A program made the translations under genes and the position numbers. From assembly GCA_001516045.1 (NCBI GenBank), contig LOEW01000020.1:1-64000 (forward strand): a DNA stretch of 64,000 nucleotides. Direction: 5' to 3'. This DNA is from Desulfosporosinus sp. BRH_c37 (GTDB lineage: Bacteria; Bacillota; Desulfitobacteriia; Desulfitobacteriales; Desulfitobacteriaceae). Of this stretch, positions 12,118 through 48,555 are shown piece after piece (within the stretch, counting starts at the first letter, position 1; each line of letters opens with the position of its first letter). The notes under the pieces were generated by a model. It was given only the letters and a program-made list of their open reading frames with translations. It did not search any database and was not told the DNA's origin.

Positions 12118-13359
12118 ATGAAACGCATTAGTGTATTAATTGTAGACGATATCAGCGATACTAGGGACAGCATCCGGCGACTTCTCCAATTCGAAGACGA
12201 TATTGAGGTGCTGGGTGAAGCAGGGTCAGGTTCCGAAGCGATACTGATTGCTGAGGAGAAACGGCCGGACATTATTTTGATGGATATAAATATGCCCGAA
12301 ATGGATGGAATACGGACAACTGAGCTTATGACTCTTCGCGTACCAGAAAGTTCAGTGATTATCATGTCGGTTCAAGAGGAGCATGCTTATTTGCGTCGGG
12401 CCATGATGGCAGGAGCCCGAGAATATATTGTCAAGCCTTTTGCCGGAGACGAACTGGCTAGCGTCATCGCCAAGGTTTATGAAATGGATCAACAAAGAAA
12501 AGAAGCTCTGGGAGAACAGTCTAAGGTGTGCAACGACTCTAAGAAGCGAAATGGTGAAATCATTTCATTTTTCAGTACCAAGGGTGGCGTCGGGAAAACG
12601 ACGATAGCTACCAATCTGGCGGTTCAATTGGCAAGTTCGGGTAAATGGAAAGTTCTTCTTATTGACCTTAACCTCCAATTCGGAGATGTAGCGGTCTTTT
12701 TAAACCTAGTGCCCAAACGAACGATGGCCGACTTAACAGAATCCGGACCGATCAAATATTCCGAGATCCAATCTAACTTTCTGACTCATTCATCCGGTCT
12801 TCAAGTATTGGCTGCTCCAACCCGCCCAGAATATGCCGAACTAGTCACAGCTGAGCATGTTGAACAAATTCTTAGCGAGGTTAAAACAAGGTTTGATTAT
12901 ATAATTTGTGATAACGTCAGCCGGTTTGAAGAAGTTAGTCTCTTAACTTTTGATATGGCAACTCAAATTTGGCTTGTGGTAGCCATGGATGTGCCGACTC
13001 TTAAAAATGCAAAACTTAGTCTTGAAGTTATCGAGGGGCTTCATCATACACCTAAAGTGCAGGTTGTTCTTAACCGCACTAGTAAAGAAATGGGAATGGA
13101 TCCTCGAGATGTGGAGAAGAGTTTAAATTTTAAAATTAGCTATAAGATTCCGAGCGACGGGCGAGCCTTGGTAGCTTCGCTCAATCAAGGCGTGCCTTTT
13201 GTAACGTCATACCCACAAAGTAAGGCTTCCGAGGCGATTCGAAGCATGGTGGAAAAACTTACTCCATCAGAAGACGTCGACCCAAACCTTGAGCTTAAGG
13301 AGCAGAGGCGACAAAATCTAAGTCCCATTAAAGGGCTTCGTAGGGTGTTCGGATTTTAG
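12118..13359 (+). CDS. tadZ: Receiver-domain/TadZ (CpaE) ATPase fusion
   Basis: A 413-residue protein. Residues 1-125 form a CheY-like receiver (VLIVDD acidic pocket, phospho-acceptor Asp in IILMDINMPEMDG, conserved Lys in YIVKPF). From about 150 on is a MinD/ParA-type ATPase with a deviant Walker A motif ([18 protein letters not shown]). TadZ proteins localise the pilus machine at a cell site. The receiver looks intact, whereas CpaE receivers are often degenerate, so phosphorylation control is possible. The gene's stop codon directly touches the palindromic element that follows. Confidence 0.92.
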   Translation: MKRISVLIVDDISDTRDSIRRLLQFEDDIEVLGEAGSGSEAILIAEEKRPDIILMDINMPEMDGIRTTELMTLRVPESSVIIMSVQEEHAYLRRAMMAGAREYIVKPFAGDELASVIAKVYEMDQQRKEALGEQSKVCNDSKKRNGEIISFFSTKGGVGKTTIATNLAVQLASSGKWKVLLIDLNLQFGDVAVFLNLVPKRTMADLTESGPIKYSEIQSNFLTHSSGLQVLAAPTRPEYAELVTAEHVEQILSEVKTRFDYIICDNVSRFEEVSLLTFDMATQIWLVVAMDVPTLKNAKLSLEVIEGLHHTPKVQVVLNRTSKEMGMDPRDVEKSLNFKISYKIPSDGRALVASLNQGVPFVTSYPQSKASEAIRSMVEKLTPSEDVDPNLELKEQRRQNLSPIKGLRRVFGF

Positions 13360-13507
13360 GCATATGAAAGAAAATAACACGTCAAAGATGCCATGGATAT
13401 TTTGCGTCAGACAAGGAGGTATGTTTACCTCATAGCGGGCTATTAGGTGAACATGCTGACGCAGTATGACACAAAATAGACTGGCATACTGACTGGTTAT
13501 TTTCTTG
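13357..13507 (+). mobile_element. Palindromic MITE-like element, copy 1 (inside the tad operon)
   Basis: About 145 bp, nearly identical in inverted orientation to 47873-48018. Its ends are imperfect inverted repeats (AAGAAAATAAC and GTTATTTTCTT). Inside are nested inverted pairs: ATGCCA/TGGCAT, ATTTTG/CAAAAT, TGCGTCAG/CTGACGCA and a central GAGGT/ACCTC hairpin. It has no coding capacity. It begins at the stop codon of tadZ and fills the gap before cpaF, so it is transcribed within the operon and can fold into a long hairpin. It could be a non-autonomous transposon or a structured RNA element. Confidence 0.75.
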
Positions 13508-13530
13508 AATGTGCCTTAGGAGGGATGAAA

Positions 13531-14880
13531 ATGTCTTTGCTTAAACGCTTAGAAAAAGTGAAAATTCATCAGTCTGAGGAGCCCACGAACGAGTCTCGGA
13601 TGGTTCGTCCCACTCCACAAATTGACCCTTGGCGTGAGTTCAAAAGTACTGTGCATCATGAAGTTATCCAGGCTTTAGATAAGACTAACACCCAAGACCT
13701 CACTTCCGAGTCACTGCACCCGCTCGTTGAGCACACGCTTGACGCGCGGGCCGATGCTTTGGGGTTAACCCCTCCTCGGATGGAACGCCAGCGCCTAGTG
13801 CAAGAGGTTATGGATGAAATCTTAGGGTTTGGTCCGATTGAATCGTTGCTTCAAGACCCTAGTGTAAATGAAATCATGGTTAACGGACCTCATCAAGTAT
13901 ATGTCGAACGGAAAGGCAAACTTGAGCTGGCTGAGGTCACGTTTTACGATGATGCACACGTCTTACATATTATTGAAAAAATTGTTGCCCCATTAGGTCG
14001 GCGCATTGATGAGAGCCAGCCCATGGTCGATGCCCGTTTACCTGATGGTTCTAGGGTTAACGCGATAATTCCTCCACTATCATTAAATGGGCCGATTCTT
14101 ACGATTAGGAAGTTTTCTAAAGTTCCCTTTGGAATGGAGAATCTTGTAGGCTTTGGGACATTGACGGCGGAGATGGCGGAATTCATAAATGCTTGCGTCA
14201 AAGCTCGTTTAAATATTGTTGTCTCTGGGGGTACGGGCTCAGGGAAAACAACAACTTTAGGTGTAATCTCCGCGTTTATTCCAGAGGATGAACGTATTAT
14301 TACTATCGAAGATGCGGCTGAACTTCAACTCCGTCAAACCCATGTCGTCACTCTGGAAACTCGCCCAGCAAATATTGAGGGTAAAGGGGCGGTTATGATT
14401 CGGGATCTGGTGCGCAACGCTTTACGGATGAGACCAGAACGCATCATTGTGGGCGAAGTCCGCAGCGGAGAAGCGCTGGATATGTTACAGGCCATGAATA
14501 CTGGTCACGATGGTTCCCTGACCACCGGACACGCTAATACTCCGCGAGATATGCTTTCTCGCTTAGAAACAATGGTATTAATGGCCGGGATGGATCTACC
14601 AGTTAGGGCAATTCGCGAACAAATTTCCAGTGCCCTAGATGTCATTGTCCAGCAGAGTCGATTGCGGGACGGGAGCCGTAAAATTACTCATATTACTGAA
14701 GTTCTTGGGATGGAGGGGGATGTGATCGTGCTTCAAGACATTTTCCGTTTCGAGCAGACAGGGATTGACAAACAAGGTAAGGTCCAAGGGCATTTCCGAG
14801 CGACCGGAATTCGACCACATTTTATTGAAAAACTGATTTCTGCTGGGCAAATTCTTCCGGACGATATATTTTCAAATTAA
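13531..14880 (+). CDS. cpaF: CpaF/TadA pilus assembly ATPase
   Basis: About 449 residues, type II/IV secretion ATPase of the CpaF/TadA branch. Visible motifs: Walker [13 protein letters not shown], an Asp/Glu-rich Walker B region ([12 protein letters not shown]), the arginine-rich [11 protein letters not shown] motif and the His box ([13 protein letters not shown]). The N-terminal domain precedes the CpaF-specific VNEIMVNGP region. The ATG at 13531 is chosen because AGGAGGG lies six bases upstream; the earlier ATG at 13525 abuts the ribosome binding site. This hexameric motor powers pilus assembly at the membrane. Confidence 0.96.
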
Positions 14881-47633: not shown

Positions 47634-47683
47634 GGGTCAGAAAGTCACAGCTCAAATAAAGCGCAAATACGCCACATTTTAAC

Positions 47684-47795
47684 TGTTCCTCTTCTCATCC
47701 AGACTTTACTGTCGGCCCCGGAATGTCACCGGGTCTGCCAAAAGGCTCGCGGGCTTTACCGCCGGTAGGGAATTTCACCCAACCCCAGAGGAATA
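47684..47795 (-). ncRNA. FMN riboswitch (RFN element) controlling ribDE-BA-H
   Basis: The minus-strand sequence carries the conserved RFN blocks: GGTGAAATTCCC, TACCGGCGGTAAAGCC, the GGCAGACCCGG and GACATTCCGGGGCC segment, and the closing AGTCTGGATGAGA. The outer helix pairs TTCCTCT near the 5' end with AGAGGAA near the 3' end. Bound FMN should favour the terminator downstream and turn the operon off. Confidence 0.97.
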
Positions 47796-47872
47796 ATTAT
47801 TGTTAATTAAATTTACTTATAGTTTACTCCAGACTTTTGATTTTAGCAACCCTATATGGCACATTCGAAAAA

Positions 47873-48018
47873 ATAACCAGTCAGTATGCCAGTCTATTTT
47901 GTGTCATACTGCGTCAGCATGTTCACCTAATAGCCCCACTATGAGGTGAGCATACCTCCTTGTCTGACGCAAAATATCCATGGCATCTTTGACTTGTTCT
48001 TCTCTTTCATATGCCTAA
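47873..48018 (-). mobile_element. Palindromic MITE-like element, copy 2
   Basis: The reverse complement is nearly identical to 13357-13507 (a few substitutions, mainly in the left terminal repeat and one inserted G). It lies between the riboflavin leader and an acetyltransferase gene, whose last three residues and stop codon lie inside the element. The same internal inverted pairs are kept, so the copy could still fold as a long hairpin. Confidence 0.75.
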
Positions 48019-48555
48019 TTTACCATGTAAGGAGAAGAATTCTTCGCGCAATAAACCCATGAGAATGGCGTCGTGATAATTTCCTAATACAAAACGTGCT
48101 TCACGTTGTCGACCTTCAAGCTTGAAACCGACCTTTTCATAGGCTTTAATCGCCCTGCTATTTCCATCCCAGGTATCCAGTGTGATCCTGTGAAAATTCC
48201 ACTGGGCAAAAAGGAAGCGCATAAAAGTAATTAAGGCATCCGTTCCATAGCCTTTCCCCCAATACGTTTTATTCCCAATCACTACATAGAGGGTGGCCGA
48301 TCGACCAGGAACATTAACTTCTTTAAAGCCTATTGATCCAATGAGCAGGTCGCTTTCATCCAAAATTGCATAGCAGTAGATGTCCGGCGATCCGTCAAGA
48401 AACTTTACTGCAAGTTGATCTTTGCTTTGTAGAGTATTCAATGGCCACGCCCCGCTGGACCATAAATTTACCTCTTGATCATTATACCATTGATACATTG
48501 TATCAATATCATCTTCTTCGATTGGACGTATTGATGTCTTTTGACCTTTTAGCAT
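48007..48555 (-). CDS. GNAT-family acetyltransferase (RimJ/RimL type)
   Basis: 182 residues. IRPIEEDDIDTMYQWYND opens the RimJ/RimL-type fold; acetyl-CoA loop in IGNKTYWGKGYGTDAL and the terminal RAIKAYEKVGFKLEGRQREARF segment. Probable substrates are protein N-termini or aminoglycosides/amino acids. The last codons (Leu-Gly-Ile-stop) come from the adjacent palindromic element, so the original C-terminus may have been altered by insertion. Confidence 0.88.
   Translation of the reverse strand: MLKGQKTSIRPIEEDDIDTMYQWYNDQEVNLWSSGAWPLNTLQSKDQLAVKFLDGSPDIYCYAILDESDLLIGSIGFKEVNVPGRSATLYVVIGNKTYWGKGYGTDALITFMRFLFAQWNFHRITLDTWDGNSRAIKAYEKVGFKLEGRQREARFVLGNYHDAILMGLLREEFFSLHGKLGI

Follow-up and report, generated by a model that had tools for sequence, protein, structure and literature searches.

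The window analyzed here, a 64,000-nucleotide stretch of a Desulfosporosinus contig, carries two copies of one short palindromic element whose MITE-type mobility we regard as almost beyond doubt and whose whole length is one hairpin, with pairing kept by compensatory changes between Desulfosporosinus and Clostridium. The evidence that this fold is conserved and specific to one strand is likewise strong. A core within the hairpin recurs between different ends in more distant genomes, and we favor, at roughly even confidence, the reading that this core is kept as RNA. The copies and their neighbors in the window are as follows.

12118..13359, forward strand: upstream gene, tadZ-like (receiver domain plus ATPase), function named from sequence
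13356..13358, unstranded: left target-site duplication TTA (from the sequence and the empty site in a sister genome)
13359..13515, forward strand: element copy 1, 157 bp, sense to the tad operon
13359..13378, forward strand: left terminal inverted repeat, GGCATATGAAAGAAAATAAC
13386..13489, forward strand: conserved hairpin core of copy 1 (model R2, 101 bits)
13496..13515, reverse strand: right terminal inverted repeat, GGCACATTCAAGAAAATAAC
13516..13518, unstranded: right target-site duplication TTA (from the sequence)
13525..14880, forward strand: downstream gene, CpaF/TadA-type ATPase, function named from sequence
47855..47857, unstranded: left target-site duplication, TAA mutated to TAT (TAA at the empty site in most sister genomes)
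47858..48015, reverse strand: element copy 2, 158 bp, sense to the GNAT gene and the FMN riboswitch and rib genes
47884..47988, reverse strand: conserved hairpin core of copy 2 (model R2, 101 bits)
48007..48555, reverse strand: GNAT-type acetyltransferase gene, its TGA stop inside the element
48016..48018, unstranded: right target-site duplication TAA (from the sequence and empty sites)

The inverted repeat of ≈145 bp that the first-pass annotation had noticed in these two regions is real: alignment over 148 bases gives the copies 95% identity, and the second is inverted relative to the first, as claimed. The borders given there, 13357-13507, missed its last 8 bp, the true element spanning 13359-13515. 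The terminal inverted repeats are 20 bp long (GGCAYATKMAAGAAAATAAC) and begin GGC; the right end is the repeat read inward from the other side. The element was also said to lack a coding frame, and indeed none of the window ORFs of at least 150 aa covers it. Copy 1 lies between the tadZ-like gene and the ribosome-binding site of the cpaF-like gene, both of which are undamaged; the first G of the element is the last base of the TAG stop codon of the tadZ-like gene, and the GGAGG ribosome-binding site sits outside the element. Copy 2 follows the GNAT gene, which ends 9 bp inside it with a product two residues longer than the empty-site form, and stands ahead of the FMN riboswitch and rib genes. 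Each copy reads in the sense direction and sits at the stop codon of the gene before it. The riboswitch lies upstream of ribD at window positions 47683-47796 on the reverse strand, ≈60 bp downstream of copy 2, and a separate insertion of a 96-bp relative of the element was observed near the same FMN riboswitch locus in a sister genome (L234:1877).

That the element is a transposed MITE follows from its inverted ends, from duplication of a 3-bp TWA target, and from sister genomes whose corresponding sites are precisely empty; this bears out the MITE half of a first-pass reading that had offered a MITE or a structured RNA. Target-site duplications had been suggested there as a check, and identical 3-bp flanks are found in 136 of 192 distinct copies, whereas 1000 shuffles averaged 74 and never exceeded 91. 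The flanks are TTA/TTA in 82 of the 192 copies and TAA/TAA in 54, and identical flanks of 4 bp occur once. A first set of 17 copies had suggested flanks without duplication, an impression that this larger set reversed. When the flanks were joined and used as queries, sister genomes turned out to lack the element at the sites of both window copies and of two further copies. For the tad site, the empty sequence in one sister genome (L249) is GGATTTTA joined directly to GGGAGG; at the GNAT/riboflavin site, most sisters have TAA where copy 2 has TAT on the left, as in CCCTATAA joined to TTTGCC. The 192 copies fall into 183 independent site clusters, and the insertions are largely independent.

The first-pass annotation had proposed a genome-wide count and had named a total of two copies with no inverted-repeat conservation, or a lack of terminal repeats, as the outcome that would speak against it. 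The host genome (6.23 Mb, 313 contigs) holds ≈17 near-full copies, of which almost every one retains the terminal inverted repeat at each end, together with at least a dozen partial copies. Matches occur in 20 of 61 genomes (the host and 60 relatives), all but one of them in the same genus, and the sole match outside it is single and weak (E 1.3e-4). An end-pattern scan of GTDB genomes recovered the same element in many Clostridium species, including C. uliginosum, C. frigidicarnis, C. carboxidivorans, C. beijerinckii, and C. neonatale, with ≈100 end sequences in the complete genome of Clostridium sp. OS1-26. Plasmid and phage collections gave no element match; a single viral-contig match was a lone 20-mer that looks like chance. 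Copies are dispersed and nearly always intergenic, only 6 of 171 overlapping an ORF of at least 120 aa by simple ORF calls.

A DDE-type transposase that reads the element ends would move such an element in trans, and a search for a related transposase had been suggested at the outset. None with matching ends was found in the genomes searched, four complete genomes included. No autonomous partner was seen in the complete genome of Clostridium sp. OS1-26 or among the matches listed for the complete genome of C. carboxidivorans, and two complete genomes from the same order likewise showed none for a relative with CTAG ends; a partner may exist elsewhere or have been lost. Pairs of ends lying 0.3-3.5 kb apart in the fetched loci were considered as autonomous partners, but none resembled an autonomous element and they looked like the ends of different elements. 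PF13359 is absent from 31 genomes, and PF01609 transposases were set aside as the cognate enzyme, their loci carrying other ends.

The palindrome described in the first-pass annotation is a single hairpin in copy 1, with a predicted RNA folding energy of −73.1 kcal/mol against −32.9 ± 3.6 in shuffles (z −11.2). Across 53 full-length copies from both genera, the 44 pairs that span the full length are formed in 95.2% of cells, a percentage flattered, more than the double-change counts are, by derivation of the structure from the same 53 sequences. Changes on both sides are found at 26 pairs, in 215 cells compared with 61 in shuffles (0 of 500 as high), and a shift of the partner by one to three columns lowers pairing to 30-47%. 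The two strands differ strongly: in a set of 114 copies, the strand bearing AAGGAGG has a consensus fold of −29.3 kcal/mol and its complement one of −7.5, and 111 of the 114 copies fold better as the plus strand. On pairs predicted from both strands, G-T combinations number 88 and A-C combinations 15; in the union of pairs, 26 columns favor G-T and 7 favor A-C. The direction is alike in Desulfosporosinus and Clostridium, and the core-only set shows the same strand preference. The structured-element half of the first-pass reading thus also stands, given the compensatory changes and the marked bias toward one strand.

Long palindromes are prone to template switching and arm-to-arm correction. 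The element could accordingly be an ordinary MITE, a functionless palindrome whose matching arm changes arise by these routes, and the recurrent deletions of its center, some between short repeats, would suit such a history. A cruciform or arm-to-arm correction should prefer no strand, however, whereas RNA or single-stranded DNA of one strand would, and G-T strongly exceeds A-C. Unpaired loop bases are also invariant across genomes in which the ends differ, and we therefore consider a functionless palindrome quite improbable.

A second alternative, and the main rival to RNA, is that the core acts in mobility as a single-stranded DNA fold recognized by a transposition enzyme or helper, as attC sites or REP elements are. 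G-T is also favored over A-C in single-stranded DNA, so that the strand preference does not prove RNA. A strand-specific structure with no orientation bias in most genomes is in keeping with this alternative. So is the failure to find a transposase linked to the copies, of which some complete genomes have dozens; elements served by a separate enzyme gene behave in this way. Three observations weigh on the other side and lead us to rate it as unlikely. True 3-bp target duplications point instead to cut-and-join at double-stranded ends, and ≈40 copies in Clostridium sp. OS1-26 show by eye no bias in replication strand, the origin being assumed at position 1. The third concerns derivatives of 46-110 bp that have lost most of the core, which make up 43 of the 192 copies and carry TWA duplications in 30 cases, forms of only 55-57 bp among them. 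In C. frigidicarnis, several sites bearing TTA or TAA duplications hold a 67-bp derivative that has the same junction throughout, and it therefore appears to have transposed without the core. Because forms lacking the core apparently still move, its conservation probably serves some other purpose, with a role as RNA the likeliest. Some short forms do arise in place by internal deletion; at one insertion site (L018, L075), the element measures 158 bp in the host genome and 57 bp in a sister species.

Were the core kept as RNA, it would form when transcription of the neighboring gene runs through a copy, and a compact hairpin between genes would neither block the operon nor expose a long untranslated stretch, a tolerance that would ease the spread of the element. 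With genus assigned by the GC content of the locus and gene neighbors by simple ORF rules, copies between tandem genes in Desulfosporosinus number 51 sense and 17 antisense (p 4e-5), and the median distance of the sense copies from the stop codon upstream is 3 bp. Clostridium (17 sense versus 31 antisense) and the distant families (8 versus 11) show no such bias, so reading by neighboring transcription is not the whole story, and as a general rule it is weakened. The hairpin might also be taken for a bidirectional terminator or an mRNA-decay element that lowers expression of the downstream cpaF-like and rib genes. Its fold is very stable and lies between operon genes, and effects of bacterial MITEs on mRNA stability and decay have been described (PMC3733652), but the element holds no U-tract terminator, and neither a promoter nor a terminator was seen within it. 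Moreover, 25 of the 51 Desulfosporosinus sense copies sit between tandem genes with less than 50 bp to either neighbor, a position in which termination would carry a cost, and we judge this role very unlikely.

A covariance model of element copies found distant relatives with the same center and differing ends, and a core model built from 25 sequences, R2, matches 27 of 398 genomes of the phylum; matches near threshold are uncertain, as simple palindromes also gain score under the model (21-24 bits on the opposite strand in the window). By eye, ≈24 of the 27 genomes, in ≈16 families, show the motif GNCAAGG, a variable stem-loop, and then ACGCAG or a near variant. The 25 sequences behind R2 all keep a G and CAAGG in the 5′ strand of the loop and likewise an A, a C, and a G in the 3′ strand. 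The distant elements are mostly 155-172 bp in total, and their ends include GGGACTATCAAGGAATAAAC, AGGACCTGTTAAGAAATAAC, CTAGTACTCTGTAAACTCTAAAA, TAGTGCCCTGTCAACC, and AGGGCGTGTCTGAAAACTC. Rfam covariance models match neither element nor core, and no description of the element was found in the literature, searched largely outside subscription journals. We tentatively suggest that the core may be an undescribed structured RNA or folded single-stranded DNA, a functional module that moves from one bacterium to another inside many MITE-like palindromes with differing ends, hitchhiking on different transposases, across ≈16 families of the phylum. If it is functional, it would be either a mobile RNA that alters how operons tolerate insertions or an unknown transposition handle; the core model permits annotation of many unlabeled intergenic repeats.

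Several further arrangements were observed. The same ends enclose another interior (CCAGAGGTCNGA ... TCTGACCTCTG) at L023, L027, L033, L034, L036, and L092, so at least one other center has been joined to these ends. Composite elements have smaller palindromes inserted in the hairpin arms (L020:1940-2212, L097, L104, L163, and L193). One distant genome, G375, holds two neighboring core copies and repeated, decayed 3′ halves (L348:10540-10860), units with no clear terminal repeats that lie beside genes resembling those of heme biosynthesis. A T-box leader scoring below the gathering threshold lies near a distant core copy (L320:940-1266, reverse strand).

PIF/Harbinger-Tourist MITEs and the IS5 family (IS1031 group) make 3-bp TWA or TNA duplications and have GG-initial ends. 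The element shares the 3-bp TWA duplication and the GG-initial ends but differs in that no such transposase with its ends was found when PF13359 and PF01609 were checked. The bcr1 repeat of the Bacillus cereus group, 147-167 bp long (PMC2267715) and often located in untranslated regions or the intergenic regions of operons (PMC3446304), is likewise MITE-like, of similar size, high in copy number, intergenic, and conserved in fold. Its mobility is tied to a TTTAT motif and it is restricted to the B. cereus group (PMC6542083), whereas the element described here has a 3-bp TWA duplication with no TTTAT consensus at its flanks, other ends, and a core found across many families. Efa-1 of Enterococcus, a 163-bp intergenic repeat family with a predicted fold (PMC2267715) that we assume to be the EFAR counted among bacterial MITEs (PMC3733652), is of similar size and setting; compared by description, it is predicted to form two adjacent hairpins, unlike the one full-length hairpin here. 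REP elements are dispersed imperfect palindromes with strand-specific recognition, no transposase inside, and a GTAG tag (PMC3733652). The element resembles REP/RAYT systems as a dispersed, strand-specific palindrome with no transposase of its own but, where those systems have a GTAG tag at one end and no target duplication, it has long inverted ends that begin GGC and a 3-bp duplication. Bacterial MITEs usually have ends in common and variable interiors; in this element it is the interior that is conserved, on one strand, and the ends that change from family to family.
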